A stretch of 64,000 nucleotides of DNA from Halogeometricum limi (GTDB lineage Archaea; Halobacteriota; Halobacteria; Halobacteriales; Haloferacaceae), in contig NZ_FOYS01000005.1 of NCBI RefSeq assembly GCF_900115785.1, forward strand, positions 248,001-312,000, read 5' to 3'. The notes beneath the pieces were generated by a model, which was given only the letters and a program-made list of their open reading frames with translations, searched no databases and was not told the origin of the DNA. This document shows positions 43,764 through 63,000 of this stretch, one piece after another (within the stretch, counting starts at the first letter, position 1; the number at the start of each line of letters is the position of its first letter). Position numbers and translations under genes: made by a program.

Positions 43764-43884
43764 TCGCCCGGTCACCGGTCGCGGTCTCTCGTCGTCGAAA
43801 CCGTGCAATCGGAGGTTTCAGCCGTCTAAAGACCGCCACGAGATAGGCTTTTGTTAGCGAGCGTACAATTAGTACCGGGACGAG

Positions 43885-43995
43885 ATGAAACACAGGTTTG
43901 CGGTGAGTGCCGGTGTCGTCGGGTCGAACTCCGCGACTGTCGAGGCGCGGCCCGAACGGTCGACGCCGGAGTCGGGCGACACCGGGGAGTGGTGA
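43885..43995 (+). CDS. 36-codon leader ORF at the head of the CIS operon
   Basis: The ATG at 43885 opens a frame encoding MKHRFAVSAGVVGSNSATVE and 16 further residues, ending TGA at 43993-43995. The stop overlaps a GTG start of the DUF4255 gene (GTGA at 43992), the same junction type seen elsewhere in the operon. The peptide has no signal or motif I know. It may be a translated leader that couples translation to the cap gene, or a short structural piece. Alternatively the ATG is unused and the DUF4255 gene starts alone. Confidence 0.45.
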   Translation: MKHRFAVSAGVVGSNSATVEARPERSTPESGDTGEW

Positions 43996-44648
43996 CGGTG
44001 GGAGAGTCGACGGTGGTCGCCGGGGTCGGACTGAGCCTGCGGAATATGCTCGCGTCCCGGATGGACGACCTGAATCTGGGCGAACTGCGTAACAGGATAG
44101 TGCTCGCGTCGCCGGGAGCGTTAGATGCGCAGGATGCGGCAGTGCTGACCCTCTTTCTCTACCGAGTGGCGGAGAACCCGTCGCTGAAGAACGCCGAGCG
44201 CCGAGAGGTTCCGCCCGCCGGACCCGGAGACGAACGTCGGTATCGACCATCGCCGCTATCGCTGGACCTCTACTACCTCCTCACGACGTATCCGCACGGA
44301 CCGAGTGAGACGCACACCGACGAAGCCTCGAACCAGCACAAACTACTCGGGCGAGCGATGCAGGTGCTCGGGGAGAACAGCGTCCTTCGTGGGTCGGACC
44401 TCCACGAGTGGGTCGCGGACGACGACGAACTGCGACTCTCCATCTACCCCGAGCAGAGCGAGGACCTCTTGAGCATCTGGAACACGTTCTCGGACCGGCC
44501 GTATCAGCCGTCCGTCGCGTACGTCGTCTCGCCGGTCGAGATAGACGCGACGCAGACGACACCGCTCGCCCGGACGAAGAGTCGGGCCGTCAGGTCCGGT
44601 CTGCGCCGTCCCGAGGACGGACCCGCCGACGGAGGCGACGGTGAGTAA
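43992..44648 (+). CDS. DUF4255 protein, Pvc16/Afp16-like tail cap/terminator of the CIS
   Basis: 218 residues from GTG (MTVGESTVVAGVGLSLRN...). It matches the DUF4255 pattern: VGLSLRNML near the start, then VLTLFLYRVAENPSLKN, SPLSLDLYYLLTTYP, HKLLGRAMQVLGENSVL and YVVSPVEIDATQ. In PVC/Afp particles the DUF4255 protein caps the tube and sheath end farthest from the baseplate and sets length termination. A GTG one codon upstream (43989) is also possible. First recognisable structural gene of the cluster. Confidence 0.85.
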   Translation: MTVGESTVVAGVGLSLRNMLASRMDDLNLGELRNRIVLASPGALDAQDAAVLTLFLYRVAENPSLKNAERREVPPAGPGDERRYRPSPLSLDLYYLLTTYPHGPSETHTDEASNQHKLLGRAMQVLGENSVLRGSDLHEWVADDDELRLSIYPEQSEDLLSIWNTFSDRPYQPSVAYVVSPVEIDATQTTPLARTKSRAVRSGLRRPEDGPADGGDGE

Positions 44649-45375
44649 CGGCGGCGACGCGGCCGACCAGTACCGGTCGGCCGTCCGAACGACGTCGCTC
44701 GCACTCGCCGTGTCGTTCGTCGACAGGGTGACGGGAGGCGCGCCGACGACGGTTCGTGGCGACCGGCCGACCGGGTGGTTCGAGGAGGGGAGCTTTCGGT
44801 CGAGACGGACGGCCGACGGGTACGACGTCTTCCTCGAGATTCCCCCGGGAGAACCGACGCTGAGCGTCGACGCCGGAGACCGATTCTTCGCGCCGACCGA
44901 CCCCGTCGTCGTCACCGAAGAGGTGCTCTCTGCGCCCTACCCGGTGCTCGAAGTGCCGTTGGAACCGACGCCGGCGTACGAGTTCGACGCGGGAACCACG
45001 CTCGTCCGCGGCGTCCTCCGCGGCCCCGCCCCGACACCCGATAGCGAGACGCCCGGGACACCGATAGCCGAAGCGACCGTCAAACTCGTCGGTCCCGAAC
45101 CGGCGACGGGCGACCGGACCGAGGTACAGACGACGACCACCTCGGCCGAGGGCGAGTTCGTCCTCTACCTCCCCGGCGACGGCGGCTGGACTGTCGACAC
45201 CGAGGGAGACGACCCTCTCGTGAAAGTGGCCGACGAAGACCCCCACATCCTCGTCGAATCCGGCGGAACGACCTCCGTCTCACCCGCGGTCGAATTGCGC
45301 GAGTCGAAGACGACTGCGGTCTCGCTGACACTCGACGGCGGGTCGCTCTCCGTGGACCGCGTACTCGTCCGCTGA
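44641..45375 (+). CDS. CIS-associated protein with carboxypeptidase-regulatory-like Ig domain
   Basis: 244 residues from GTG, overlapping the cap gene by 8 bp. The N-terminal 100 residues form a beta-rich module (LALAVSFVDRVTGGAPTTV, YDVFLEIPPGEPTLSVDAGD). Residues about 118-210 look like a carboxypeptidase regulatory-like/CnaB-type domain (TTLVRGVLRGPAP, PIAEATVKLVG, TTTSAEGEFVLYLP). There is no signal peptide, as for other CIS parts. A decoration or cap-associated protein is plausible from its position between cap and sheath genes; no experimentally characterised counterpart is known to me. Confidence 0.6.
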   Translation: MSNGGDAADQYRSAVRTTSLALAVSFVDRVTGGAPTTVRGDRPTGWFEEGSFRSRRTADGYDVFLEIPPGEPTLSVDAGDRFFAPTDPVVVTEEVLSAPYPVLEVPLEPTPAYEFDAGTTLVRGVLRGPAPTPDSETPGTPIAEATVKLVGPEPATGDRTEVQTTTTSAEGEFVLYLPGDGGWTVDTEGDDPLVKVADEDPHILVESGGTTSVSPAVELRESKTTAVSLTLDGGSLSVDRVLVR

Positions 45376-45464: not shown

Positions 45465-48413
45465 ATGCCAGAGTATCTATCGCCCGGCGTCTACGTGGAG
45501 GAAGTAGAGACCGGTTCGATGCCCATCGAAGGGGTAAGTACGAGCACAGCGGGGTTCTTAGGAGAGACGGAACGGGGGCCGACGGTTCCCCGGTTCCTCA
45601 CGAGTTTTGCGGACTACAGACGGACGTTCGGCGGGTACGACCTCTACGGAGAACAGGGTCGGTTACGTGGGACGCACCTCGCGTACGCCGTCGACGGGTT
45701 CTTCCGGAACGGCGGCACCCGGTGCTTCGTCGGCAGAGTCACGGGCGAGAAAGGCGTCGCGAAGACGGCTCTCTCGCCGTTCGGACTGCGGAGTTCGCTG
45801 GCCGTCTCGACGAAGACCGTCTCGTTCGGCGACGTCGTCCTCGGCGACGGCGTGACCGAGATGCTGGAACTGACGAACACGAGCGGAGACGTCAGCGTCG
45901 AGATACAGGGCGTGACGCTCGACCCGCCCGCGATGAGTACGGACTACAGCACGGACTTCGACTCGGCGACGGGCATCACGCTCGGCCCGAAGGAGACGGC
46001 GGAGATAGCCGTCCGATTCGAACCGTCGGCCGAAAACGACCGGGACGCGACAGTGCTCGTGACTCACGACGCGTCCTATCCCGAGGGGCCGTACGAAGTC
46101 GAACTCGAAGGACGAGGCGTCGGTCGACTGGAACTCTCGCCGGCGGAACTGTCCTTCCGAACGGTCGTCGTCGGTAGTTCGGACGAACTGGAGGTGACGC
46201 TCTCGAATCGAAGCGGCGAAGAGAGCGTGACGATTCAGGACGTCACCAGTTCCGATACCGAGTTCACCACCGACTTCGACGCGTCGAATCCGGTGACGCT
46301 CGGAACGGACGACGAACCACACGTCCTGACGGTGACGTTCACGCCGGACTCGGCGGCCGACGACAAGACGGCGACGCTCACGTTCGACGTCGACGACGAG
46401 TCGGGCACCGACGTCACGGTCGACGTGACGGGCCGTGGGGTCGACGCCGAGACCGACGGGGCACTGGAGGCAGACGGGTCGGCACCCGGCGAAGTCGACT
46501 TCTCCGACGTCGAACTCGAAGCGTCCGAGACGCTCACGGTCCGCGTGTACAACACCGACGACGACACCGACGAGGACGTCGCGAGCGTCGAGATGGAACT
46601 CACCACCGCCGAGGAAGGAGAGTTCGAACTGACCGAGGAACCGTCGTCGTTCACTATCGGAGCGATGGAACACCGCGACTTCGTCGTCCGGTTCACCCCG
46701 GCGGCGGCCGGTGCCCGCGAGGCGGAACTCGTGCTGAAAGACGACTCGGACGCCGACATCGCGTCGTTCACGGTCACCGGGAGCGGCGTCGAACCGGGCG
46801 ACGTACAGACCGGGCCAGCGTCCGTCTCCGTCGAGGCGGGAGAACTCGACTTCGGACTCGTTCCCGTCGGGAGTCGGGCCCGGCGGTCGGTCGTCCTCGT
46901 CCACGGCGGGGACGCGGACACCGACGCGGTCACGGTCGAGGAGGTCACGTCCGGCAACGCCGACGTCTTCGGCGTCCTCCACGACTTCGACGCCGACGCG
47001 GACGGCCCGATAGCACTCGCGCCGGGCGAGAGCGCGCGCATCGGAGTGGTGTACGAACCGCCGGACGAGAGCGAACACACGGCGACGCTCACGGTGACAC
47101 TGACGGGCGCGGCAGAGAACTCACACACGGTCGAACTCAGCGGCGCGGGCGACGGGACGGCGCTCACTGCGGCCGCCGTCGGCCCGGGCGTCTGGGGAAA
47201 CAACGTCGCACTCCACGTCGAAGACGCCTCGCTCGCGAACCCGGAGAACGACCTGTTCAAACTCGTCGTCCGCTACTGGAGTCGAGACGCCGACGCCGAC
47301 ACCGCGCGGGCGCACGGCGGCGACACGGAACGCGACGAGGTTCCGACACCGACCGTCGAGGAGGTGTACGACAACCTCTCGCCGACGGAGACGTCGGCCG
47401 ACTACTACGTGAACCGCGTCAACGGCGCGTCGAACCTCGTCGAACTCGAACGCGCCGCGGGAAGCGATGCTCGCCCGTCGAACACGGCGGGACACGCCGT
47501 GTGGCTCTGGGACGACGGCCGGGAGGACGAGGACGTGACCGTCGGGCACTTCGAGGGCGACGAACAACTGCCGCCGGGCACGCGGACGGGGCTGGCCGGA
47601 CTGGCCGAGAAAGACCAGATATCCATCGTCTGCGTCCCCGACGAGAACCACTACGAGTCCGAGGGAGCGCTCACCGACGCGGTTCGGATACACTGCGAGA
47701 CGCTCAAAGACCGAATCGCGGTCCTCCAGACGGAGGAGGACCCGGGGAAGATAGACACGATACGGCCGCCGGTCGACTCGACGTACGCGGCGTACTACTA
47801 CCCGTGGCTGACCGTCCTCGACCCGCTGACGAACGCGCGAAAGAACGTTCCGCCGTGCGGTCACATCGCCGGAGTCTACGCACGGACCGACACGGAACGA
47901 GGGGTGCACAAAGCGCCCGCGAACGCCGTCGTCCGGGGCGTCATCGAACCGCGCGTCCCCATCGCGAAAGCCGAACAGGACATCCTGAACCCGCTCGGCG
48001 TCAACTGCATCCGGACGTTCGCCGGGCGAGGGACGCGCGTGTGGGGCGCGCGGACGACGTCGTCGAACCCGCTGTGGAAGTACGTGAACGTGAGACGCCT
48101 GTTCCTCTACATCGAGGAGTCTATCGACGAGGGGACGCAGTGGTCCGTCTTCGAACCGAACGACGAACCGCTGTGGGCTCGCATCCGACAGTCCGTAACG
48201 AACTTCCTGACGACGACGTGGCGCGACGGCGCCCTGCAGGGGGCGACGCCCGACCAAGCGTTCTTCGTCACCTGCGACCGAACGACGATGACCCAAGATG
48301 ACATCGACAACGGTCGACTCATCGTCGAAATCGGCGTCGCACCGGTGAAGCCGGCTGAGTTCGTCATCTTCCGCATCAGCCAGTGGACCGGCGGCGTCGA
48401 GGAGAGCGCGTGA
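45465..48413 (+). CDS. CIS contractile sheath protein with four inserted Ig-like domains
   Basis: 982 residues, about twice the usual 350-500 of Afp/PVC sheaths. Residues 1-100 are the sheath N-terminus (YLSPGVYVEEVETGSMPIEG, TAGFLGETERGP, FFRNGGTRCFVGRV). Residues about 110-220, 221-326, 335-442 and 450-561 are four ASPM/SPD-2/Hydin-type ('choice-of-anchor D') Ig repeats, e.g. LDFGLVPVGSRARRSVVL... and IALAPGESARIGVVYEPP. From about 566 (LTAAAVGPGVWGNNVALHVE) the sheath core resumes. The conserved C-terminal domain follows: SVFEPNDEPLWARIRQSVTN, FLTTTWRDGALQGATPDQAF, and PAEFVIFRISQ. It is the only sheath gene in the window. The insert should face outward on the assembled particle. Confidence 0.93.
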   Translation: MPEYLSPGVYVEEVETGSMPIEGVSTSTAGFLGETERGPTVPRFLTSFADYRRTFGGYDLYGEQGRLRGTHLAYAVDGFFRNGGTRCFVGRVTGEKGVAKTALSPFGLRSSLAVSTKTVSFGDVVLGDGVTEMLELTNTSGDVSVEIQGVTLDPPAMSTDYSTDFDSATGITLGPKETAEIAVRFEPSAENDRDATVLVTHDASYPEGPYEVELEGRGVGRLELSPAELSFRTVVVGSSDELEVTLSNRSGEESVTIQDVTSSDTEFTTDFDASNPVTLGTDDEPHVLTVTFTPDSAADDKTATLTFDVDDESGTDVTVDVTGRGVDAETDGALEADGSAPGEVDFSDVELEASETLTVRVYNTDDDTDEDVASVEMELTTAEEGEFELTEEPSSFTIGAMEHRDFVVRFTPAAAGAREAELVLKDDSDADIASFTVTGSGVEPGDVQTGPASVSVEAGELDFGLVPVGSRARRSVVLVHGGDADTDAVTVEEVTSGNADVFGVLHDFDADADGPIALAPGESARIGVVYEPPDESEHTATLTVTLTGAAENSHTVELSGAGDGTALTAAAVGPGVWGNNVALHVEDASLANPENDLFKLVVRYWSRDADADTARAHGGDTERDEVPTPTVEEVYDNLSPTETSADYYVNRVNGASNLVELERAAGSDARPSNTAGHAVWLWDDGREDEDVTVGHFEGDEQLPPGTRTGLAGLAEKDQISIVCVPDENHYESEGALTDAVRIHCETLKDRIAVLQTEEDPGKIDTIRPPVDSTYAAYYYPWLTVLDPLTNARKNVPPCGHIAGVYARTDTERGVHKAPANAVVRGVIEPRVPIAKAEQDILNPLGVNCIRTFAGRGTRVWGARTTSSNPLWKYVNVRRLFLYIEESIDEGTQWSVFEPNDEPLWARIRQSVTNFLTTTWRDGALQGATPDQAFFVTCDRTTMTQDDIDNGRLIVEIGVAPVKPAEFVIFRISQWTGGVEESA

Positions 48414-48436: not shown

Positions 48437-48880
48437 ATGGCAGACTTACACGGCCCATACAGAAACGCGCGATTCCTGCTCCAGATAGACGGAATCGACA
48501 AGGCGGGGTTCAGTCAGGCGACGATAGCCGAGACGTCGACCGAACCCGTCGAGTACCGAGAGGGAAACGAGAAACCGACGATGCGAAAGCTGCCGAACCT
48601 CACGACGTACGGGAACCTCTCGTTGCAGTGGGGGACGACGGCCGATTCGCTCGAACTGTTCGAGTGGCGGCAACTGGTCGAACTCGGCCAGATGGACCAG
48701 GCGCGCCGCGACATCGCGGTGGTACTCCTCGACGTGGGCGGAGAGCCCAGCGCGCGGTGGAACTTCACGCTCGCGTGGCCCACGCAGTACGACGCCCCCG
48801 ACTTAGACGCCAGCGGTAACGAGGTGGCGATAGAGTCGATGGAGATAGCGCACGAAGGTATGGAGCGTGTCGAACCGTGA
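48437..48880 (+). CDS. CIS inner tube protein (Afp1/Pvc1-like, gp19 family)
   Basis: 147 residues. The tube fold shows YRNARFLLQIDGIDKAGFSQ at the N-terminus, the central hairpin KLPNLTTYGNLSLQWGTT, and the C-terminal NEVAIESMEIAHEGMERV. It forms the hexameric inner tube that is driven through the target membrane. A GAGGAG Shine-Dalgarno precedes the ATG by about 8 nt. It lies directly after the sheath gene, the standard order. Confidence 0.92.
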   Translation: MADLHGPYRNARFLLQIDGIDKAGFSQATIAETSTEPVEYREGNEKPTMRKLPNLTTYGNLSLQWGTTADSLELFEWRQLVELGQMDQARRDIAVVLLDVGGEPSARWNFTLAWPTQYDAPDLDASGNEVAIESMEIAHEGMERVEP

Positions 48881-49350: not shown

Positions 49351-49544
49351 CGACCGGCTATCCGCTCGACCAACTGTACGAAGAGGTGAGTTTCGTGGCG
49401 TACCACTTCAACTGGGACCACGACGACGTCCTCGAACTGCCCCACTGGGAGCGACGGCGCTGGTGTGAGGAGATAAGCAAGATACACGAGCGGATGAACG
49501 ACGAACCGGCGACGACGACACGCTCGCTCGGGAGTCTCCGCTGA
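49347..49544 (+). CDS. DUF6760-like small CIS protein, probable CTG start
   Basis: 65 residues: MTTGYPLDQLYEEVSFVAYH followed by FNWDHDDVLELPHWERRRWC and a short tail. The pattern (YPxDxLYEEVAxxxYHFxW...HxERRxW) fits the small protein that follows the tail-assembly gene in many eCIS and phage-tail-like loci. No ATG/GTG/TTG precedes the conserved start in frame. A CTG at 49347 overlapping the upstream TGA (CTGA) is the only start that fits. Confidence 0.7.
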   Translation: MTTGYPLDQLYEEVSFVAYHFNWDHDDVLELPHWERRRWCEEISKIHERMNDEPATTTRSLGSLR

Positions 49545-50011
49545 TGGTGCTCGGAGAGCGGACGGACCCGTATCTCGGCTACCGATTCCTCGTCGAAGTT
49601 GACGGACTCGTGGTCGGCGGGTTCTCGGAGGTGTCCGGACTGACCGTCGAGATGGAGACGGCGCGGTACGAGGAGGGCGGCGTCAACGCGTTCGTCCACC
49701 AGTTCCCGACGCGACTCACGCACCCGAACCTCGTCCTCAAGCGAGGACTGACAGACGACGCGTCGTTCTGGCAGTGGATGCAGGACGCCGTCGCCACGAG
49801 TCCGGTTCCGCTGGAACTGGCGACGCTCAGAAAGAACGTCCGCGTCGTCTTGCTCGACGCGGCCGGAGACGAATCGCTGGGGTGGGAGTTCCTGCGGGCG
49901 TACCCCATCAAGTGGGTCGGCCCCGAGTTCGACGCCGCGCGAGGTGCGGTGGCAATCGAGACGCTGGAACTCGTACACGAGGGCATCTCCACGATGAGTG
50001 GACGCCCATGA
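49544..50011 (+). CDS. Second CIS tube protein (Afp5/Pvc5-like, gp19 family)
   Basis: 155 residues. YLGYRFLVEVDGLVVGGFSE, VSGLTVEMETARYEEGGVNA, the HQFPTRLTHPNLVLKRGLTD hairpin and AIETLELVHEGI are the classic gp19-like tube signatures. Two tube genes per cluster are usual. This second form, nearer the ATPase, normally makes the first ring(s) on the baseplate hub. It overlaps the neighbouring genes by 1 and 4 bp. Confidence 0.92.
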   Translation: MVLGERTDPYLGYRFLVEVDGLVVGGFSEVSGLTVEMETARYEEGGVNAFVHQFPTRLTHPNLVLKRGLTDDASFWQWMQDAVATSPVPLELATLRKNVRVVLLDAAGDESLGWEFLRAYPIKWVGPEFDAARGAVAIETLELVHEGISTMSGRP

Positions 50012-52323
50012 CCGCCGTCGCTCCCTACGAAGACGACGCGTCGTACCTCCTCGACGAACTGGAACTGTTCGACAGGCTTCTGGAGCGACGACTCCTGACG
50101 TGGTGGAGCGAAACCGAAGCCGAGAACGAGTTTTCGGGGCTCTACATCTCCGACGCCGAAGTGTGGAACCTCTTGGGAGCCTCACTGGACGGCAGCGAAC
50201 GGCGGAGCGCGAACCGAGGCGGAGACGGAGAGAGCGTCCGGGGTGGACGCGACGTCCGAGACGACGGCCGTGAACGGTCGACCGACGGGGGCGAGCGCTT
50301 CGATGCGGTCGAGAGCGTCCCGGCAGACGCCGCCGCCGAGACGCAGTTCTTCGACGTCGCCGACACGTTCCGCCGATTCGACGCGCGAGTGACGGCGGCG
50401 AGTCGGCGGATTCGACGGCGAAAACGCCTCACGCGGGACGCGGGGCGAACGCTCCGATTCGACAGGCTCTGCGAGACGTTCGGTCTGGAGACGCGACACC
50501 GAGAGGCACTGCTCGTAGCGCTCGGACCCGAACTGGACCCGAAGTACGGCCGCATCTACGCGTACCTCCACGACGACGTGACGCGGACGACGCCGACGGT
50601 CGGACTGGTGGTTCGGCTCTTCGCGTCGGACCGCCGCGACCGAATACGATATCGGACGGCGTTCACCGACCGGTCGGTGCTCCGCCGAAGTCGACTCCTC
50701 ACGGTCGACGACTCCGGAGGCGAACCGCTGCCGAACGCGACGGTTCGGGTCGAAGAACGCGTCGTGGAGTACCTGCTCGGCGGCGACGAACTCGGGGGGC
50801 GACTCGCCGACGTCGTCGACGCCTCGGCGGCAGCGAGTCTCGACGCCGTCCCCGTCGACGACGGCGGACGGCGACGGCTTGAACGACTGGTCGACGTCCT
50901 CGCACGTCGAACCGAGCGCGGAGAACACGCGTTCGTCCACCTCTACGGCCCCGAAGGGGTGGGAAAGGCGGCCGGCGTGGCGGCCGTCTGTTCGGCCGTC
51001 GGCCGCGCACACCTCCTCGCGAGCCTCGAGGACGTCCCCGCGACGGAGTGGGTCGAGCGGTGCGAGTTGCTGGTACGCGAGGCCCGACTGAGAGACGCCG
51101 CACTCGCGGTCGATATCGGGTCGGTCGACGAGAGAGACGAGAACGGCGAACAGACGCTCTCGGTCGTCCGAGGACTCGTCGAACGCCTCGACGAACTAGG
51201 CGCGCACGTCTTCCTGCTCAACGCCGACGGCCTCCCACAACGCGTCTTTCGCGGCGTCGAACGACACGTCGTCTCGACGGTCGAACTCCCTCGAACGGGG
51301 TTCCAGCAGCGACGGCGTTCGTGGGAGGCCGTTCCGGACCTCCCGGCCGACGCCGACGCGACGTATCTGGCGTCGACGTTCCGGTTCACCCCCGGAGAGA
51401 TAGCCGACGCCGTCGAGACGGCGCGACGTCTCGACGACGGGGACTCGCTCACCGCGGAGACGCTTTCTCGCGGCTGTCGCGTACAGGCGAGGCGGAATCT
51501 GGGAAGCCTCGCTCGGCGCGTCGAACCGCGGTACACGTGGGACGACATCGTCCTCCCCGAGGGTCGACTCGACCAGTTGCACGAGGTGGCCGCGCGTATC
51601 AGACGCCGCGGAGAGGTACTCACCGAGTGGGGGTTCGAAGAGAAATTCAGCCTCGGAAACGGCCTCACCGTCCTGTTCTCGGGGCCCTCGGGGACGGGAA
51701 AGACGATGGCGACCGAGATACTCGCCTCCGACGCGGGCCTCGACCTCTACAAAGTCGAGTTGGCGAGCGTCGTGAGCAAGTACATCGGGGAGACGGAGAA
51801 GAACCTCAAACGGGTCTTCGACGAGGCCGAGGGAAGCGACGCCATCCTTCTCTTCGACGAGGCCGACGCCCTGTTCGGGAAGCGGTCAGAGGTCACGGAC
51901 GCTCGGGACAGGTACGCGAACATCGAGGTGAACTACCTGCTCCAGCGAATCGAAGAGCACGGCGGTATCGTCGTGCTGACCACGAACCTACGCGAGAACT
52001 TCGACGACGCCTTCGAGCGTCGAATCCACGCGTGCGTGGACTTTCCGCTCCCCGACGAACGGTCGAGAGCCGAGATTTGGCGTCGGGTGTTTCCGGACCA
52101 GACGCCGACGACAGACCTCGACGTGCCGTTCTTGGCGGGGTTGGAACTGAGCGGCGGGAGCATCAAGAACGTCGCGCTGAACGCCGCGTTCCTCGCCGCC
52201 GAGGAGGGAACGAGCGTCGAGACGTCGCACGTCGTCCGCGCGACGAGACGAGAGTACCAGAAGATGGGCCGGATGTTCAGTGTCGACGAGTTCGGCGTGT
52301 ACGCGTCCTGTCTTCGTTCGTAA
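50008..52323 (+). CDS. CIS AAA+ ATPase (Afp15/Pvc15-like)
   Basis: 771 residues from ATG (ATGA overlap). The N-terminal region (about 1-290) is family specific. A first AAA-like module at about 310 has a degenerate P-loop (GPEGVGKAAG). The second, active module has Walker A FSGPSGTGKTMATEI (about 556-570), Walker B AILLFDEADALFG (about 612-624), sensor 1 VVLTTNLRENFD and an Arg finger region FERRIHACVDFPLPDE. Pvc15-type ATPases are needed for assembly or cargo loading and stay in the producer cell. Last gene before a promoter-bearing gap. Confidence 0.92.
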   Translation: MTAVAPYEDDASYLLDELELFDRLLERRLLTWWSETEAENEFSGLYISDAEVWNLLGASLDGSERRSANRGGDGESVRGGRDVRDDGRERSTDGGERFDAVESVPADAAAETQFFDVADTFRRFDARVTAASRRIRRRKRLTRDAGRTLRFDRLCETFGLETRHREALLVALGPELDPKYGRIYAYLHDDVTRTTPTVGLVVRLFASDRRDRIRYRTAFTDRSVLRRSRLLTVDDSGGEPLPNATVRVEERVVEYLLGGDELGGRLADVVDASAAASLDAVPVDDGGRRRLERLVDVLARRTERGEHAFVHLYGPEGVGKAAGVAAVCSAVGRAHLLASLEDVPATEWVERCELLVREARLRDAALAVDIGSVDERDENGEQTLSVVRGLVERLDELGAHVFLLNADGLPQRVFRGVERHVVSTVELPRTGFQQRRRSWEAVPDLPADADATYLASTFRFTPGEIADAVETARRLDDGDSLTAETLSRGCRVQARRNLGSLARRVEPRYTWDDIVLPEGRLDQLHEVAARIRRRGEVLTEWGFEEKFSLGNGLTVLFSGPSGTGKTMATEILASDAGLDLYKVELASVVSKYIGETEKNLKRVFDEAEGSDAILLFDEADALFGKRSEVTDARDRYANIEVNYLLQRIEEHGGIVVLTTNLRENFDDAFERRIHACVDFPLPDERSRAEIWRRVFPDQTPTTDLDVPFLAGLELSGGSIKNVALNAAFLAAEEGTSVETSHVVRATRREYQKMGRMFSVDEFGVYASCLRS

Positions 52324-52797
52324 ACGCGACGTACGTGAGGAGAAGGGCGACAGAGACGCCGAATCGGACCTGGACGGGAACCTTCGTTCACGACTCGTTC
52401 GTCCACTTCTTACGCGACCGAGCGACCTCGGAACGTGACCGAGCGACCTCGGGGTAACGGTTCGATGCGAACGGGGTTTCGGGGCGACCGAAACTACGAG
52501 TGCGCTACGTCGAAATCTCCACGGGGCCGTTCTTCCGCACCTTCTCTCGACGTGTCGGTTCTGGCCCCTCCGCCGCACCGCTTGTGTAGTCCTCACTCCC
52601 GGATTGGCACGTCCAGTGAGTCCTCGACGTCACTGTACGCAGAGAGATACGTCGAGCGACGACGAAAAGGTTTCTACCAACGAGACCGCCCTCGACGCCG
52701 CTTCTGCCGGGAGCCGAGTTCCGGAGATAAATGACTAGAGAAATATATAAGCTTCAACACACTAATTGGTACGCACGAGTCGGTCGGGCACTCCACG
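52324..52797 (+). promoter_or_regulatory. 474-bp gap inside the CIS cluster with a new promoter and a short repeat
   Basis: No coding pattern is visible. A 16-bp direct repeat (GACCGAGCGACCTCGG) occurs at 52416-52431 and 52437-52452. Near the right end AAATATATAAGC (52741-52752), one of the best TATA boxes in the window, lies about 46-57 bp before the next GTG. The cluster therefore has at least two separate transcription units. Confidence 0.65.
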
Positions 52798-54090: not shown

Positions 54091-54747
54091 ATGCCCAGAG
54101 CGACGCTGTCGGAACTCGCGAAAGCGGTCATCTTCGTCCTCGACGAACGGGGCAACCCGGAGTACCCGATTCCGGTGTTCTTCAACCCGACCGAGTACAA
54201 CGTCGACACCAGTACGAACTACAGCGAACAGGCGTTGTTGGGGATGGACTCTCCGCTCGTCCAGTTCGTCAGCGGGGAGACCGAGACGCTCTCGATGCAA
54301 CTGTTCGTCGACAGCTACGAGTTGGGGACCGACGTCCGAATCGTCTACACGAACCACATCGACCGCTTGTTGAAAGTAGACGGAAAGCGCCACGCGCCGC
54401 CACAGTGTACGTTCGTCTGGGGGTCGCTCGTGTTCAAGTCGGTACTGGTGAGCGCGAACAAACGGTTCACGATGTTCCTCCCCGGCGGGTTCCCCGTTCG
54501 AGCGGAGATAGACGTGACCTTCCGGCGGTATCAGACGCCGACCGAGCAACTGGTGCGGGTGAAACGCGAGTCCGCGGACAAGACGACGGTTCGGTCCGTC
54601 GAGGCGGGCGAGACGCTCACGTCCATCGCGGCGGCGGAGTACGGCGACCCCGAGACGTGGCGACCCATCGCCGAGGCGAACGGCATCGACGACCCGCGGA
54701 CGCTCGAACCGGGACGTGAACTCGTGATACCACCGCTGGAGGATTAG
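54091..54747 (+). CDS. CIS LysM hub protein (Afp7/Pvc7-like)
   Basis: 218 residues. The N-terminal domain contains PIPVFFNPTEYNVDTSTNYS and LSMQLFVDSYELGTDVR, the eCIS 'CIS tube protein' signature. A LysM domain spans about 165-216 (SVEAGETLTSIAAAEYGDPE, TWRPIAEANGIDDPRTLEPG, ELVIPP). In related particles it joins the tube to the spike in the baseplate hub. It starts directly after the upstream TAG. Confidence 0.92.
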   Translation: MPRATLSELAKAVIFVLDERGNPEYPIPVFFNPTEYNVDTSTNYSEQALLGMDSPLVQFVSGETETLSMQLFVDSYELGTDVRIVYTNHIDRLLKVDGKRHAPPQCTFVWGSLVFKSVLVSANKRFTMFLPGGFPVRAEIDVTFRRYQTPTEQLVRVKRESADKTTVRSVEAGETLTSIAAAEYGDPETWRPIAEANGIDDPRTLEPGRELVIPPLED

Positions 54748-56508
54748 ATGGAGCAACTAACGTTCGAAACGCTGAGCAAACGATACGGCAACTTCTACGT
54801 ACCGCGGTTCACCGTGACGGTCGGTGGCGAGGAACTGACAGAGGCGACGGGCGTCGTCTCCGGACTCACCGTGGACTCGAAGGTCGGAACCGCGGCGGAG
54901 TTCACGTTCACGTTGACGCCCCACTACGACCACGAACACAACGCGTTCCAGCAGTTCGAGCAGAGGGACGGCCTCCTGTGGGACACGGGGCGGTTCGAGG
55001 CGCTCGACTTCGATTCACTCCGGGTCGGAACGCCGGTGACGGTACACGTCGGATACGGCGACGCGCAGACGCCGCTGGTCAACGGGCAGATAGCCTCCGT
55101 GAAGCCGAGCTTTCCGGAGAGCGGGACGCCGACGATAACCGTTCGTGGCTACGATAGCCTCCGAACGCTGGCCGACCGACAGACGACGGACGTCAACCTG
55201 AAGGAGACGTCGGTGGCGGACGTCGTCTCGGAGCTCGCTACGAAACGGGGGTTCGATGCGGTGACCGTCGAGCCCTCGCCGGCGGTGAACGAGCTCAGGC
55301 CGAAGATTCAGCGCACGGCCGAACAGGACGACTTCGAGTTCCTCACGGAACTGGCCGACGACATCGGATACGAACTGCACGTCAGCTGCACCGAGCGAGG
55401 CGACGTACTCAGTTTCCGGCCGGTCGATTCGGAAGGCGACCAGCCGATGGTCGCCCTCAGATACGGCGAATCACTGCGCTCGTTCGCCGTCGAGGAGAAC
55501 GGAACGGGGCAGCCCGAGACGGTCGAGGTCCACGGGTTCGACGCGAAGAACCGGACGGAAGTGAAGGCGAGCGCACGGAACGAGGACGACACGGTGGCCG
55601 GGCAGACGGAGGGGTCCAGAGTGCTGTGTCGTCCGGTTCGGACGAAAGGCGAAGCGGACACCGCCGTTCGCGCCGAGGCTGCGCGCTTGAAGCACGCCCA
55701 GCGTCGGGGGAGCGGGACAGCGCTGGGACTGCCAGAACTGTGCGCGGGGACGACTATCCTCGTCGCCGGAGTCGCACCGTACAACGGCGCGTACTACGTC
55801 GAGAGCGTCACACACAGCATCGACACCTCGGGGTACACGACTCGGTTCAGGTTCGGCGCGGGCGACGGTGCCAACGAGAGAGCCGAGAGAGCGAACCGCG
55901 GACGGCGTCAGATGGGCGTCACGGTCGGACTCGTCACGGACAACGAGGACCCCGAGGGACTGGGACGCGTTCGGGTGACAACGACGTGCCTCGGTGACGA
56001 TGTGAGCCACTGGGCACCGATCGCGGTGCCGATGGCCGGTGCCGAACGCGGCACCTACTTCCTCCCGGAACCGGACGAGGAAGTGCTCGTCGCGTTCCAA
56101 GACGGCGACGTCGAGTTCCCGTTCGTCGTCGGATCTCTGTGGAACCTCGAAGAGAAGCCGCCGGCCAGCAACGACGACGGGAAAAACGACGTCCGGTTGG
56201 TTCGCTCGCGGAGCGGACACGAACTCCGGTTCGACGACGGCGACGACGGAGCCGTCGAGATAACGAGCGCCGGCGGGAATCGAATACGGCTCTCAGACGA
56301 GTCCGGCTCCGAGACGGTGACCATAGCCGACGCCAGCGGCGAGAACACTATCGAGATAGCGACGAGCGACGGTGCGGTCAGTATCGGCGGTGCGGCGAAA
56401 GTCGCGCTGTCCGCCCCGATGCTCGAACTCGCGGCCGACGGCAACATCGACGTCCAGGCGGGCGGAGTGTTGACCCTCAAGGGGTCGCTCGTGAACATCA
56501 ACAGTTGA
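54748..56508 (+). CDS. CIS spike protein (VgrG-like, Afp8/Pvc8)
   Basis: 586 residues. Residues 1-370 are the gp27/late-control-D-like hub (FYVPRFTVTVGGEELTEATG, VNLKETSVADVVSELATKRG, AEQDDFEFLTELADDIGYEL). An OB-fold gp5-like domain follows (about 388-470: GVTVGLVTDNEDPEGLGRVR, FLPEPDEEVLVAFQDGDVEF). The last 100 residues are a regular beta-prism/needle (VTIADASGENTIEIA, DGAVSIGGAAKVALS). The trimer punctures the target envelope and carries the PAAR tip encoded next. Confidence 0.93.
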   Translation: MEQLTFETLSKRYGNFYVPRFTVTVGGEELTEATGVVSGLTVDSKVGTAAEFTFTLTPHYDHEHNAFQQFEQRDGLLWDTGRFEALDFDSLRVGTPVTVHVGYGDAQTPLVNGQIASVKPSFPESGTPTITVRGYDSLRTLADRQTTDVNLKETSVADVVSELATKRGFDAVTVEPSPAVNELRPKIQRTAEQDDFEFLTELADDIGYELHVSCTERGDVLSFRPVDSEGDQPMVALRYGESLRSFAVEENGTGQPETVEVHGFDAKNRTEVKASARNEDDTVAGQTEGSRVLCRPVRTKGEADTAVRAEAARLKHAQRRGSGTALGLPELCAGTTILVAGVAPYNGAYYVESVTHSIDTSGYTTRFRFGAGDGANERAERANRGRRQMGVTVGLVTDNEDPEGLGRVRVTTTCLGDDVSHWAPIAVPMAGAERGTYFLPEPDEEVLVAFQDGDVEFPFVVGSLWNLEEKPPASNDDGKNDVRLVRSRSGHELRFDDGDDGAVEITSAGGNRIRLSDESGSETVTIADASGENTIEIATSDGAVSIGGAAKVALSAPMLELAADGNIDVQAGGVLTLKGSLVNINS

Positions 56509-56522
56509 GACAGGAGATAGAC

Positions 56523-56813
56523 GTGCCACCAGCAGCGAGAGTGACGGATCTGACCGCCCACGGAACCCCGCTCACGGGAGCCGGAAGTCCGAACGTCTTC
56601 ATCGGCGGACTGCCCGCGTGGCGGGCGGTGGGCGACGTGCACAGCTGTCCGCTCGCCTCAGGACCGGCCCCCCACGTCGGCGGACCGGTCGCAGTCGGGA
56701 GTACGACCGTGTTCGTCAACGGATTCCCGGCCGCGCGGGCGGGCGACACGATAGTGGAAGCGGGGCCGCCGAACACGATATCGAACGGCGAACCAACGGT
56801 CAACATCGGATAA
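56523..56813 (+). CDS. PAAR-domain spike tip protein
   Basis: 96 residues from GTG (MPPAARVTDLTAHGTPLTGA). The PAAR order is intact: PPAARVTD, GSPNVFIGGLPAWRAVGDVH, the metal-ligand His/Cys segment VHSCPLASGPAPHVG, VNGFPAARAGD and a final PTVNIG. It sharpens the VgrG-like spike and may hold one metal ion through His/Cys residues. There is no C-terminal toxin extension. Confidence 0.92.
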   Translation: MPPAARVTDLTAHGTPLTGAGSPNVFIGGLPAWRAVGDVHSCPLASGPAPHVGGPVAVGSTTVFVNGFPAARAGDTIVEAGPPNTISNGEPTVNIG

Positions 56814-56815
56814 CC

Positions 56816-57211
56816 ATGGATACAGAGTTTCTCGGAACAGGATGGGCGTTTCCGCCCGGAATCGACGACAGCGAGCACGTCTCGCTCGCGAACGGCGAGG
56901 AAGACATCGAGCAGGCGATACGGCTCGTCCTCGGCACCGTCCCGGGCGAACGGGCGATGCGGCCGGAGTTCGGGTGCGGCGTCCACGACTACGTCTTCGA
57001 GACGTTCGGGTCGGCGACGTCCGCGCTCGTCGAGACGGCCGTCGAGGAGGCGCTTCTCCGGTGGGAGCCGCGAATCGACGTGGTGGGCGTCTCGGCGTCG
57101 CTCTCCGACGAGGGCGGCGGCGCGAGACTCACCGTCGAGATAGACTACCGCGTCCGCAGCACCAACAGCGAGTTCAACCTCGTCTATCCGTTCTACCTGG
57201 AGGAGCGGTAG
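56816..57211 (+). CDS. Baseplate wedge protein, GPW/gp25 family (Afp9/Pvc9)
   Basis: 131 residues. The gp25 signature is clear: LGTGWAFPPGID, EDIEQAIRLVLGTVPGERAM, RPEFGCGVHDYVFETF and LLRWEPRIDV. It links sheath initiation to the baseplate wedge. The ATG comes two bases after the PAAR stop, and its TAG abuts the next ATG. Confidence 0.95.
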   Translation: MDTEFLGTGWAFPPGIDDSEHVSLANGEEDIEQAIRLVLGTVPGERAMRPEFGCGVHDYVFETFGSATSALVETAVEEALLRWEPRIDVVGVSASLSDEGGGARLTVEIDYRVRSTNSEFNLVYPFYLEER

Positions 57212-60200
57212 ATGGTCACCGAACCCGTCGTCGACGGCCGAACGCGCGACGAACTCCTCGCCGAGTCGCGAGCGCTCGCCGCCGAGTACGTGTCCGAGTG
57301 GAACCCCGAGCGAGGCGACGTCGGCGCCACGCTGTTGGAACTGTTCGCGTCGATGACGCACGACGTCGTCGAACGACTCGACGCGGTCCCCGAGAAGTAC
57401 CGACGGTCGTTCTTCGAGACGCTCGGGTTCGACAGGGCGCCGCCGCAGTCGGCGCGACTCCCGCTGACGTTCGACGTCGCCGACGAACTCGACCGAAACG
57501 TCCGCGTGCCCGAGTCGACGCGCGCGGTCGCGCCGGCCAGCGAGCGTCGACCGGAGACGTTCTTCGAGGTTCGAGACGGGGAGTTCGACGCGACGCCGGC
57601 GGCCCTCCGCGCGGTGTACAGCGTCCGGCCGAAGTCCGACCACCTCGGAGACCACAGTTCGGTCCTCGCGGGACCGGAGACGACGGAACTGTTCGGTGGC
57701 GACAACCACCAAGAGCACGCACTGTACCTCGCGCACGACGAGTTGTTCCGCGGCAGTCCGCCGACGGTCCGCGTCGACCTCGCGACGGAGGCACCGCTCA
57801 GCGTCCTCAGAGAACGGCTCGTGTGGGAGTTCTACGGCGAGCGAGTGGTGGACGGCGAACCGGTCGAGGGGTGGCACTCGGTCGAGTCGTTCGCCGTCGA
57901 CCGCGCGACGCAGACCGACGCCGCGACGGGGACGACCGTGCGGGTGTCGCTGACGTTCGACTCCGAGACGGCGGACGCGGACGAACCGACGTGGTCGTTC
58001 ACGGCGTCGACGCTCGCCGAGACGGTCGAGAGCGTGGCCGAGGCGATAGCGTCGGAGACGGCGGCGACACATCCCGAAGCGGTCGCGACCGAGTCGCTGT
58101 GGCTTCGGTGTCGGTACCACGAGACCGCACGCGACTGGGGACTCGCACCGACCGACCTGTTCGAGGTGACGCTCGACGCGGTGCACCTCGTGACTGGTGA
58201 GGCGGGGGCGACGTTCGAACCGGACGAGTTGTTCGCCGACGACGTTCCCCTGCCGCCGACGTCTGCGGACGAAGAGATACTCCCGCTGGGGTCGCTCCCG
58301 CGGCAGTCGAGCACGTTCTACGTCGGGTCCGAGCGGGCGTTCACGAAGTCCGGCGCGGCCGTCTCCATCGAGTTCGCCGGAACCGGCGTCGCGGTGGACG
58401 CCGATTTCACGCCGAACCCGAGACTCTGGTGGGAGTACTGGGACGGCGACAACTGGGCGTACCTCGACGTCGCGGGGAAGGCGAAGACGTTGCAGGCGGC
58501 GGGAGCGGTCACGTTCGAGGTGCCCGCTGACCTCGCCGCGACGACAGTCGCCGGTCAGGAGAGTCACTGGGTTCGCGCGCGCCTGATGGGCGGCGCGTAC
58601 GTCGCGCCGAAGGCCGTCCCGAAGGACGCGGACGGAAAGACCGTAACAGACCCCACGGCGGCGGCGTACTGGGAGACCGAGTACGACGGGACGCCACCGA
58701 AGTTCTCGGAAGTGAGGCTGTCGTTCGGGAGCGACGGGGCGGAGGCGGACGCGGGCGAGGACGCGGACGCGGGACTCCCGAGAGACGAACCGACGCACGC
58801 CCTCTCGTACAACAACCTCGCGTTCGACGCGGACGTCACCAGCCCGTTCTTCGGCGCGCCGGACGCCACGCAGACGCTGTATCTGGGGTTCGACGCACCG
58901 CTGACCGACGGTCCGATACAGCTTCTGTTCTCGCTCGCAGACCGGGAGTTCCCCGCGGACTTCGCCCCGCGCGTCCGGTGGGAGTACGCGAGCGACCCGA
59001 ACCGCGACGCGTGGGAACCTCTGAGCGTCACCGACGAGACGGAGGCGTTGACCCGGCGCGGCATCGTCGGACTGGTCTTTCCGGAGGCGACGACGGCGAG
59101 CGCACGGTTCGGCCGCCGCCTGCACTGGGTCCGCGCCCGCGTCGAGAAGAGTCAGTTCGGCCCGCCCCTGACCGGCGCGACGGCGTCACCGCTGGCGATA
59201 ACGCACATCGACGCGGCAGACGAGTACGTCGAACTGACGAACCGGGGCGCGACCAGAATCGACCTGTCCGGCTACACGGTAGACTTCGAGTACGCCCAAC
59301 CCGCCAGCCAACTCGCGACGATTCCCGCGGGGGTGACGCTCGGACCGGGGGCGACGCTCGGCATCGCCACCGGCGACTTCTCGCCGGTCGAGGCCGGTCC
59401 GAACGTCCTCCGGTTCGACTCGACGCTCCCCATCATCAACGACTACACGCCGGACACGATAGCCGTGCTGGACCGAGAGGGAAGGCTCGTCGCCGTCCGA
59501 ACGGACGACTTGGACGACGACGGGCGCGCGCGTCTCCGCGAGGGCGGCGAACCCGACGACGGCGACGGCGGGAGCGGCGACACCGAGACGGACGCGGTCG
59601 GGCTGTGCGAGGACGTCGACGAGTGGGAGCCGTCGCCGTCGGACGCGATACCTCCCTGTGGAACGGCGCTCGCGACGAAGCCGCAGGAGGGCGTCCCGAC
59701 GAGAGCTCCGCCGATGACGACCGGCGTGTACGTCAACGCGGCGTGGGCGGAGAACGTCCAGACCGTCGCCGACGAGACGCTTGGCAGTAGCGACGGAACG
59801 CAGTCGCAGTCGTTCGAGATAGCGACGACGCCAGTTTTCGAGGAGGCACTGTGGGTCGAAGAGTCGAGCGCGTTAGCAGCGCGCGCCCGCGAGGCGTTAC
59901 TCGCGAATCCGCTCGCCGAGACGGTCGAAGGCGAAGGCGAGGGCGATGGCGAGCTATGGGTTCGGTGGACGCGCGTCGAGCGTCTGTTCGGTGCGGCGAG
60001 CGACGCTCGCGTCTACTCGCTGGACCCCACGGCGGGCGTCGTGACGTTCGGCGACGGGGCGAACGGTGCGATTCCGCCGCGCGGGAGCGACAACGTGCGC
60101 GTCACCTACCTGACGGGCGGCGGCGAGCGAGGGAACGTCCCCGCCCGCGCCGTCGACGGACTCGTGAGTTCGCTCGCGTTCGTCGACGGCGTGACGAACC

Positions 60201-60934
60201 CGGAACCCGGCGACGGGGGGGCGGAGACGGAGCGAGTCGAGCGGGTGCTCCGACGTGCGCCGGGAGCGCTCCGAGACAGGAACCGCGCGGTGGCGGCCGC
60301 CGACTACGAACGCATCGCTCGGTCGGCGTCGCGCAGAGTCGCGCGCGCGAGGTGCCTCCCCGCGATGGACGCGGCGGGCGAGTTCGCGCCGGGATGGGTG
60401 ACGCTCCTCGTCGTCCCGCGGTCGAGTCAGCCCACGCCGACGCCGTCGGCGGAGTTGCGGCGACTCCTCGATGCCGCGTTCGCCGACGCCGCGCCGGCGG
60501 CGCTGGTCCCACCCGAACGCCTCGGGCAGTCCGACGAGGAGCCACCCGCGTTCGAGCCACCGGGCGAACTCGTCGTCCGCGGACCCACGTACGTGGACGT
60601 CGACGTCGAAACGACGGTCACTCGAACGGCCGGCGTGAGCGTGTCGGCGCTGGAGGAGACGCTGACAGACCGACTCACGGCGTTTCTGCACCCACTCACC
60701 GGGAGCGAGTCGGGTGAGGGGTGGCCGTTCGGAACGCTCCCGTGCCTGTCGGACGTGTACAGTCTCCTCGAGGGTGTCGAGGGGGTCGACCACGTCGACT
60801 CGGTGGAACTGACGTTCCGCGGGAGCGACGCCTCGGTGGCGGTTCGCGAAGGCGACCCGACGCCGGACGTCGCCCGGGACGTGTTGGTCACGAGCGGGAC
60901 GCACGCCGTCGACGCGAGCGGAGGTGTCGCGTGA
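57212..60934 (+). CDS. Baseplate J-like protein (Pvc11-like) with inserted lamin-tail-like domain
   Basis: 1240 residues. The N-terminus (DELLAESRALAAEYVSEWNP, GATLLELFASMTHDVVERLD) and C-terminal half (VTYLTGGGERGNVPARAVDG, LRRAPGALRDRNRAVAAADY) match the putative baseplate assembly family TIGR02243. The middle has a repeated duplicated wedge-like domain. Residues about 660-770 form an extra module: ITHIDAADEYVELTNRGATR, IDLSGYTVDFE, LGPGATLGIATG, LPIINDYTPDTIAVLDREGR, the standard lamin-tail (LTD) pattern. An acidic Gly/Asp linker follows. The protein is a baseplate wedge component; the LTD should protrude from it. Confidence 0.9.
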   Translation: MVTEPVVDGRTRDELLAESRALAAEYVSEWNPERGDVGATLLELFASMTHDVVERLDAVPEKYRRSFFETLGFDRAPPQSARLPLTFDVADELDRNVRVPESTRAVAPASERRPETFFEVRDGEFDATPAALRAVYSVRPKSDHLGDHSSVLAGPETTELFGGDNHQEHALYLAHDELFRGSPPTVRVDLATEAPLSVLRERLVWEFYGERVVDGEPVEGWHSVESFAVDRATQTDAATGTTVRVSLTFDSETADADEPTWSFTASTLAETVESVAEAIASETAATHPEAVATESLWLRCRYHETARDWGLAPTDLFEVTLDAVHLVTGEAGATFEPDELFADDVPLPPTSADEEILPLGSLPRQSSTFYVGSERAFTKSGAAVSIEFAGTGVAVDADFTPNPRLWWEYWDGDNWAYLDVAGKAKTLQAAGAVTFEVPADLAATTVAGQESHWVRARLMGGAYVAPKAVPKDADGKTVTDPTAAAYWETEYDGTPPKFSEVRLSFGSDGAEADAGEDADAGLPRDEPTHALSYNNLAFDADVTSPFFGAPDATQTLYLGFDAPLTDGPIQLLFSLADREFPADFAPRVRWEYASDPNRDAWEPLSVTDETEALTRRGIVGLVFPEATTASARFGRRLHWVRARVEKSQFGPPLTGATASPLAITHIDAADEYVELTNRGATRIDLSGYTVDFEYAQPASQLATIPAGVTLGPGATLGIATGDFSPVEAGPNVLRFDSTLPIINDYTPDTIAVLDREGRLVAVRTDDLDDDGRARLREGGEPDDGDGGSGDTETDAVGLCEDVDEWEPSPSDAIPPCGTALATKPQEGVPTRAPPMTTGVYVNAAWAENVQTVADETLGSSDGTQSQSFEIATTPVFEEALWVEESSALAARAREALLANPLAETVEGEGEGDGELWVRWTRVERLFGAASDARVYSLDPTAGVVTFGDGANGAIPPRGSDNVRVTYLTGGGERGNVPARAVDGLVSSLAFVDGVTNPEPGDGGAETERVERVLRRAPGALRDRNRAVAAADYERIARSASRRVARARCLPAMDAAGEFAPGWVTLLVVPRSSQPTPTPSAELRRLLDAAFADAAPAALVPPERLGQSDEEPPAFEPPGELVVRGPTYVDVDVETTVTRTAGVSVSALEETLTDRLTAFLHPLTGSESGEGWPFGTLPCLSDVYSLLEGVEGVDHVDSVELTFRGSDASVAVREGDPTPDVARDVLVTSGTHAVDASGGVA

Positions 60935-63000
60935 GCCTCGACGTGCCGAACCTCGACGACCGGACGTTCGCCGACATCCTCGAAGACGCGAGGCGGCAGA
61001 TTCCCGTCTCCGCCGAACAGTGGACGGACCACAACGCCAGCGACCCGGGCATCACCATCCTCGAGATGCTGGCGTGGCTCGCAGAAAGCTACGGCTACCA
61101 ACTGAACCGAGTGACGGAGAGACACGTCCGCAAGTTCCTCACTCTGATGGGCGCTGGCCCGGCGAGTCCGACGCGAGCGACGGCGACGCTGACCGCCTCT
61201 TCGCCGAGCCCGGTCCACATCCGCGCGGCGACGGGGGTCACGGCGACGGTCGACCCGAGTCGAGCGGAACCGTTCGAGACGAGCGAGGACGCGTATCTGA
61301 CGACGGCGAGGCTCGCGCAGGTCGTCTCGAATCACAGCGCCGGCCGGGTCGACAACACGGAGGCGAACGCGACGCCCGGAATGTACTTCTTGGCGTTCGG
61401 CGAGCGAGCGCGACCGGGGAGCGCGATGTACATCGGGTTCGACGGCGACCCGTTCGGTGGCGAGAGTCGAGACGCGCTCGACGCTCTGGACCTCGCGGTC
61501 GAGTTCTACGAGGGGGACCTCCCCGGTCCGGCGACGCACGGCGACGAGACCCCGTCGTTCCGGCCGAGTCTCGAAGTGCGGTGGCAGTACTGCCGCGACT
61601 ACGAGCACTGGCACCGCCCGAGCGCGTGGGGCGACCTGACCGTCCGCGACGGGACGAACCACCTCTACGAGAGCGGGACCATCCGCGTGGAACGGCCGGA
61701 GCCGTGGTCGCCGTCGGCGTGGGGCGTCGAGAGCGGGCGCGTCCTCGACGGACAGCGAGGGCTGTACTGGCTCAGGGCCGTCCTCGACGAGGCGGACGCC
61801 GAACCGTTCGGACAGGGCTACGAAGTCCCGCCGCAGTTGTCGTCGCTCTCGGTGAACGTTGTCCGCGTCAGACACGGGCGCCTCGTGACCGACCCGGAAG
61901 CGCTCGTGCGGAGCGACGACCCGACGAAGACGACGACGAGAGCCGTCACGAACCAGCGGTTCGCGTTCCGACACCGGCCCGTGCGGTCGGAGGGCGTGGC
62001 CGTCGTCACCGTCGGCCGGCGAACGTCCGTCGCCGAGTCGGGGTCCGTCCCGGGCGGGTGGCGGACCGACCGCTGGAAAGTCGTCGAGACGTTCGACGCC
62101 TCTGGACCCGACGAGAGACACGTCGTCCTCGACGAGTCGAACGGTGAACTCGTGTTCGGCGACGGACGGCGGGGGAGAGTCCCCGACGCGGGGAGCCACG
62201 TCGTCGTCGAACGGTACCGCTTCGGCGGGGGAGAGCGAGGGAACGTCCCCGCGACGGCCGCGTGGCGGTTCGACCGGCCGCCGTTCGGTACCGCGTCGGT
62301 CACCGCACACGGCCCGGCGTCCGGCGGTCGAGACGCGCAGACGACGGACGAAGCGCTCCACGCGTTGCAGACCGACCTCGCGACGAGGTACCGGGCGGTC
62401 ACGGCGGCCGACTTCGCGCTGGTGGCCACGCAGACTCCCGGCCTCCGCTTCGGTCGGGCGCACGCGTGGGTCGACGAACGCGCGTCGCCCGGTGACTGCG
62501 CCGGACGGCGAACGGTGACTGTCGCCGTCGTGCCCCACAGTACGCGGCCGCGCCCGGAACCGAGCGCGGGCTTCCTGAACGCGGTCGAAGACCACCTCTG
62601 TACGCACCGACTACTGACGGACCGAGTGGCGGTCGAACCGCCCGTGTACGTCGGTATCGAAGTCGACGTCGAGGTTCGACTCGGTCCCGGAGAACGGGCC
62701 GTAGAGCGAACGGACGCCATCGAAGCGGCACTCGACACCTTCCTCGACCCACTGCCGAACGACGAGTACGGAGGGTGGCCGTTCGGGCGGGCCGTCTACC
62801 CCTCGGAACTGTACGAAGTCGTCGAGGCCGTCGACGGCGTCGACTGCGTACTCGACGTGGGCGTCGTCGTCCACGGCGGAACGTTCGAGGTGGGCGTCGA
62901 CGGAACGGTGACGATTCCGAAGAACGGGTTGGTGTACCCGGTCGGTCACGACGTGACCGTCCGAACCGGAGACGAGGGGTGCGATGGAGGCGTCCGATGA
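60931..63000 (+). CDS. Second baseplate J-like protein (Pvc12-like)
   Basis: 689 residues from GTG overlapping the previous stop (GTGA). LDVPNLDDRTFADILEDARR, WTDHNASDPGITILEMLAWL and AESYGYQLNRVTERHVRKFL are typical of the short TIGR02243-type baseplate protein. The C-terminal half has RYRFGGGERGNVPA, VTAADFALVATQTPGL and a gpJ-like end. It pairs with the first J protein to build each wedge. Its stop overlaps the next ATG. Confidence 0.92.
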   Translation: MSLDVPNLDDRTFADILEDARRQIPVSAEQWTDHNASDPGITILEMLAWLAESYGYQLNRVTERHVRKFLTLMGAGPASPTRATATLTASSPSPVHIRAATGVTATVDPSRAEPFETSEDAYLTTARLAQVVSNHSAGRVDNTEANATPGMYFLAFGERARPGSAMYIGFDGDPFGGESRDALDALDLAVEFYEGDLPGPATHGDETPSFRPSLEVRWQYCRDYEHWHRPSAWGDLTVRDGTNHLYESGTIRVERPEPWSPSAWGVESGRVLDGQRGLYWLRAVLDEADAEPFGQGYEVPPQLSSLSVNVVRVRHGRLVTDPEALVRSDDPTKTTTRAVTNQRFAFRHRPVRSEGVAVVTVGRRTSVAESGSVPGGWRTDRWKVVETFDASGPDERHVVLDESNGELVFGDGRRGRVPDAGSHVVVERYRFGGGERGNVPATAAWRFDRPPFGTASVTAHGPASGGRDAQTTDEALHALQTDLATRYRAVTAADFALVATQTPGLRFGRAHAWVDERASPGDCAGRRTVTVAVVPHSTRPRPEPSAGFLNAVEDHLCTHRLLTDRVAVEPPVYVGIEVDVEVRLGPGERAVERTDAIEAALDTFLDPLPNDEYGGWPFGRAVYPSELYEVVEAVDGVDCVLDVGVVVHGGTFEVGVDGTVTIPKNGLVYPVGHDVTVRTGDEGCDGGVR

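Follow-up and report, generated by a model that had tools for sequence, protein, structure and literature searches.

Four ASH-type Ig domains inserted in the contractile sheath protein of a CIS gene cluster from Halogeometricum limi

The DNA analysed here, called the window, is a stretch of 64,000 nucleotides from Halogeometricum limi, and all positions refer to it. It contains a CIS gene cluster on the plus strand. The contractile sheath gene is open over 982 codons, from an ATG at 45465 to a stop at 48413. In the source genome it is present once and uninterrupted, and its third-position GC of 0.85 is similar to that of the neighbouring genes. The genes of the cluster are:

43851..44648, + strand, Pvc16-type cap protein (PF14065, 1.4e-33)
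45465..48413, + strand, contractile sheath protein, Cis2-type, 982 aa (9EZM is the top match by sequence and fold)
48437..48880, + strand, inner tube protein 1, gp19-like (PF06841, 7e-41)
49544..50011, + strand, inner tube protein 2, gp19-like (PF06841, 5.4e-42)
49774..52323, + strand, WHD-AAA+ ATPase (PF22977, 1.9e-54; PF00004, 4e-27)
54091..54747, + strand, CIS tube/LysM protein (PF19266, 1.2e-29; PF01476)
54748..56508, + strand, hub/spike protein, VgrG-like (PF04717, 1.3e-24; PF05954)
56618..57211, + strand, gp25-like baseplate wedge (PF04965, 6.8e-26)
57212..60934, + strand, Cis11-type Baseplate_J protein with an inserted lamin tail domain (PF04865, 2.8e-12; PF00932, 6.5e-10)
60721..63000, + strand, Cis12-type Baseplate_J protein (PF04865, 7.1e-9)

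The real start of the ATPase gene is probably later than the listed GTG. The sheath gene adjoins tube, ATPase, spike and baseplate genes without head genes, and a prophage was ruled out, as no head or packaging genes were found beside the cluster. The gene immediately 5' of the sheath gene (44641-45375) gave a weak match to a carboxypeptidase-regulatory-like (beta-sandwich) domain (E 0.0015). The open reading frame at 52731-54719, between the ATPase and tube/LysM genes, gave no Pfam match and allows at least two start or frame readings. The lamin tail domain, which has an Ig-like fold, occupies residues 657-763 of the Cis11-type protein and is likewise found in the homologue from genome G143 (L150:1105-5025). 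The eCIS_core domain (DUF4157) was not found among the CIS genes of the window that were tested; three genes elsewhere in the source genome carry it (C4:127949, C5:337429 and C5:267418), and it is encoded inside the CIS cluster by two genes in G332 (L155) and one in G143 (L150).

The sheath protein combines both sheath domains (PF04984, residues 712-865; PF17482, residues 866-972) and the N-terminal SPGVYVEE segment with a long insert. Its parts, with Ig domain borders set by a profile built from the Ig domains themselves, are:

45465..45749, + strand, N-terminal segment, residues 1-95, a conserved part of the core (aligns to 9EZM residues 1-87)
45792..46121, + strand, Ig domain 1, residues 110-219, ASH/choice-of-anchor-D type (Pfam, NCBIfam, own profile, AlphaFold2)
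46122..46442, + strand, Ig domain 2, residues 220-326 (same four sources)
46458..46790, + strand, Ig domain 3, residues 332-442 (same four sources)
46818..47153, + strand, Ig domain 4, residues 452-563 (same four sources)
47169..47579, + strand, sheath domain 3 and linker, about residues 569-705 (aligns to 9EZM residues 108-254)
47580..48410, + strand, C-terminal core, PF04984/PF17482 (417-bit alignment to 9EZM)

Positions Y4, P7, G8, V9, Y10 and G33 of the N-terminal segment are invariant. Upstream of the sheath core, four stretches were matched by PF22073 (Cep192_D4; 1.9e-30, 105.8 bits against a cutoff of 35.5), by ASH PF15780 (9.1e-30, 103.2 bits against a cutoff of 27) and by the NCBIfam model NF012200 choice_anch_D (choice-of-anchor D; 119.8 bits, curated cutoff 45); the HYDIN Ig model PF22544 also matched the insert (2.3e-18). 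Profile cutoffs were thus exceeded for ASH/choice-of-anchor-D Ig domains with a beta-sandwich fold, and the scores and the fold together rule out a chance or low-complexity origin of the matches. A sequence-only reading of the window had proposed four tandem Ig-like domains of the ASPM/SPD-2/Hydin type at 45792-47160. These limits are correct to within a few bases of those of our own profile (45792-47153), the count of four is upheld by Pfam, NCBIfam and that profile, and the Ig identity by the PF22544/PF15780-type models and the predicted fold. Pairwise identity among the four domains is 19-35%, which points to an old array and rules out recent tandem duplication or an assembly error as its source. 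Asp and Glu make up 22% of the insert; its net charge per 100 residues is -18, compared with -3 in the C-terminal core.

Among solved structures, the H. borinquense sheath 9EZM is closest (phmmer 1.1e-162). The alignment covers residues 1-95 of the window protein and picks up again at residue 569, with about 20 residues of 9EZM in between, which bears out the earlier placement of the insert after the N-terminal segment and ahead of the core. All nine array sheaths described below have the insert after an NGGxRCxxGR strand (near residue 85-95) and before GPGxWG, the motif with which domain 3 begins. The window sheath was modelled with AlphaFold2 as a single chain from an alignment of 54 sheaths; the model (mean pLDDT 81, pTM 0.60) gives the strand sets of four beta-sandwiches at residues 112-563 with the sheath fold preserved; at this low pTM it does not fix how the arm points relative to the core. 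Foldseek searches with this model returned 9EZM first (TM 0.72 by target length), followed by ciliary central apparatus proteins, which are rich in ASH domains.

In solved relatives domain 3 faces outward. Domain 3 of the S. coelicolor sheath is surface-located and flexible (PMC10066040). The H. borinquense sheath turns its domains 1 and 2 inward and varies most in domain 3 (PMC11566945), and the extra domains III and IV of the AlgoCIS sheath project outward (PMC8894135). With the array joined to the beginning of domain 3, its outward display is likely by topology and precedent. The proposal of the sequence-only reading that the insert lies on the outer surface is likely to the same degree, from entry at domain 3 and from precedent (PMC10066040, PMC11566945); its figure of 24 Ig domains per ring corresponds to the C6 symmetry reported for the H. 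borinquense sheath and would apply to the window protein if that symmetry is shared. Unrelated inserts of 110-260 aa occur at the same site in some methanogen (including Methanosarcina), ANME (including ANME-1) and bacterial sheaths (loci L047, L048, L049, L063, L053, L065, L066 and L072), so the site appears permissive. Two further sheaths (L032 and L076) seem to repeat domain-3-like units.

Of 394 Halobacteria genomes searched, 48 had a sheath core, and family and order searches added eight CIS genomes, for a total of 56. The survey of presence and copy number that the earlier reading had called for gave arrays of two, three or four Ig domains, all at the same site, in nine of these 56 genomes, where absence from G714 and G742 was judged solely from open-frame lengths (577 and 572 aa). 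Four domains are present in the window genome, G143 and G713, three in G344, G218 and G352, and two in G361 (Halogeometricum pallidum JCM 14848, locus L006), G712 and G744. The other sheath loci fetched, including those of methanogens, bacteria and viral contigs, gave no Ig match. Long sheaths of ANME-1, Methanosarcina, Sulfurovum, Paraburkholderia and viral contigs were among those without a match, and Ig arrays as a general habit of long sheaths were ruled out on this basis. Presence of the array differs inside one genus (window genome and G332; G744 and G749), and the same-genus locus pairs with and without it (window and L117; L167 and L169) are useful for particle comparison.

On a tree of the sheath core that included the eight array sheaths then known, the Ig label requires four changes; an earlier tree with six array sheaths required three. 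Forcing the eight into one clade was rejected (p-AU 6.8e-5, with long branches and possible recombination as caveats). With the same caveats, a single origin followed by vertical descent is ruled out and gain or loss of the array has recurred. Ig domains of different lineages are 15-39% identical and show no positional correspondence, so that domain-by-domain homology between lineages was rejected except within L112-L114. The closest non-sheath relatives of the insert include large haloarchaeal multi-repeat proteins, one of which (L136) is subtilase-like and has an apparent PGF-CTERM-type C-terminal tail, a surface anchor type, which suggests that the array derives from a module of surface proteins.

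The dN/dS values for the array, domain 3 and C-terminal core are 0.38, 0.10 and 0.05 for the pair L113/L114 and 0.32, 0.21 and 0.08 for L115/L164; the more divergent comparisons of L112 with L113 and L114 gave 0.25-0.30 for the array and 0.09-0.10 for the core. Rates in the array exceed those in the C-terminal core 2.5- to 8-fold, although domain 3 is also faster than the core (0.10-0.24 across comparisons), so that relaxed peripheral constraint explains part of the difference. At a dN/dS of 0.25-0.38 the array is under purifying selection, retained yet fast-changing, which fits an exposed surface module.

Haloarchaeal CIS fall into two clades (PMC11566945): the T6SS-mode clade has a putative membrane anchor of six helices, Hbor_38620, and the other lacks this protein. 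The anchor was searched for with a candidate homologue from Haloferax larsenii (389 aa), encoded upstream of the CIS cluster, which from its six predicted helices, its position and its co-occurrence we infer to be the homologue of Hbor_38620. It matched 34 of the 48 CIS genomes, a share equal to the 29 of 41 in PMC11566945, and G742 among the added genomes. No match to this query was found in the source genome, and on the core tree the anchor-bearing sheaths sit in a 37-row clade to which the window sheath does not belong; by both criteria it lies apart from the 'purple' T6SS-mode clade of PMC11566945. All nine array genomes are anchor-negative. The Ig array is thus present in 9 of 21 anchor-negative genomes, four of which (G714, G744, G749 and G756, all added) are incomplete at 61-83%, and in 0 of 35 anchor-positive ones (hypergeometric 3.9e-5, a value that overstates the independent evidence because most anchored sheaths form one clade). 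The sequence-only reading had missed this recurrence of the array in other haloarchaea, solely in CIS without the T6SS-mode anchor. The 12 anchor-negative genomes without an array imply that it is not required for their mode.

Four ASH Ig domains have been spliced into a sheath whose fold is preserved. On balance it is probable, if modestly so, that they form outward arms and that these provide polyvalent surface binding or tethering of unanchored particles. The insert of about 450 residues lies in the loop that runs from the sheath wall to domain 3 and leaves the contraction core untouched, so that the sheath should still assemble and contract. Each ring would project six flexible, strongly acidic Ig arms, which may tether free particles to the surface of the target or producer (S-layer glycoprotein or polysaccharide) or to each other. 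Target recognition by CIS is usually assigned to baseplate tail fibres; if the sheath displayed Ig domains by the hundred from end to end, it would offer a further contact surface, and a polyvalent one. It is doubtful, though conceivable, that the sheath itself is the adhesin of anchor-lacking haloarchaeal CIS, with recurrently gained, fast-evolving Ig arms replacing the anchor and holding particles side-on to cells or S-layers, and with the sequence and length of the array setting the target range. The array would flag one group of archaeal CIS by sequence alone, and its mutual exclusion with the putative anchor yields a direct prediction on free versus anchored particles.

The most credible alternative, itself rather unlikely, is that the arms bind no ligand and are structural, cementing or spacing the sheath or giving it an acidic, solvated surface for solubility and stability in molar salt. 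The net charge of the insert agrees with this, as does a varying copy number, which is expected of a non-specific spacer, and stabilisation is among the roles proposed for extra phage sheath domains (PMC9230969). Anchored haloarchaeal sheaths, however, function in the same salt and none of the 35 has an array, and cementing contacts should be conserved, whereas the array is the fastest-evolving part of the protein and its domains have diverged widely between lineages.

Eukaryotic ASH domains are intracellular scaffolds and microtubule- or cilium-associated modules, so that the array could just as well bind something within the producer. A cytoplasmic scaffold of this kind could tether or bundle particles and so stand in for the absent membrane anchor. 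The restriction of arrays to anchor-negative genomes and the fold matches to ciliary ASH proteins speak for it; with 12 genomes lacking both anchor and array, and related arrays in apparently secreted or surface haloarchaeal proteins, such docking is improbable. Least probable of all is that the domain-3 loop serves as a landing site on which mobile modules persist without a specific role. The unrelated inserts at this site in ANME-1, Methanosarcina and bacterial sheaths and the recurrent gain or loss of the array are what such accretion would produce, but the array is under purifying selection, and as nearly half of the machine's most abundant protein it would seem too costly to be kept for nothing. 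Polyvalent surface binding or tethering by outward arms is the reading preferred here.

A full-text search of a limited literature collection found no description of a CIS sheath with ASH or choice-of-anchor-D arrays. Predicted Cis2 structures were compared between haloarchaeal clades in 2024 (PMC11566945, fig. S8), so that inserts of this kind may have been noticed by the authors of that paper. The H. borinquense archaeal T6SS Cis2 (9EZM; PMC11566945) is a homologue of the window sheath over the whole core, with a common three-domain base architecture, but it belongs to the anchor-bearing clade and lacks the Ig array, whereas the window genome lacks an anchor homologue. The sheath of the cytoplasmic S. 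coelicolor CIS (8BKY, 8BL4; PMC10066040) is a core homologue whose domain 3 lies at the sheath surface and escaped resolution owing to its flexibility; unlike the window sheath it has no ASH array and is 534-539 aa long. Afp2 and Pvc2 (6RAO, 6J0B) share the contractile core and, at 354 and 355 aa, have no such domain, as the earlier reading held for classical Afp/PVC sheaths. Its view of a large insert as unusual holds against these two and was overstated more widely, since AlgoCIS Alg2 has its outward domains III/IV and many phage sheaths have Ig-like extra domains. Alg2 (7ADZ; PMC8894135) is, like the window sheath, a large single sheath protein of an eCIS with outward extra domains; it differs in its length of 692 aa and in extra domains that are unmatched by sequence and, in the available part of that paper, are not described as ASH-type tandem arrays. 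Multi-domain phage sheaths ('type 2/3' and T4 gp18) carry extra domains, many of them Ig-like, away from the tube, with adhesion or stability as proposed roles; the part of PMC9230969 available to us reports no ASH/choice-of-anchor-D tandem array among them. The haloarchaeal multi-repeat proteins such as L136 have the Ig type and tandem layout of the insert (E 1e-25), but there the array sits in a separate, probably secreted protein, and in the window it sits in the sheath. Outward sheath domains, often Ig-like, are thus already known from phages and AlgoCIS.
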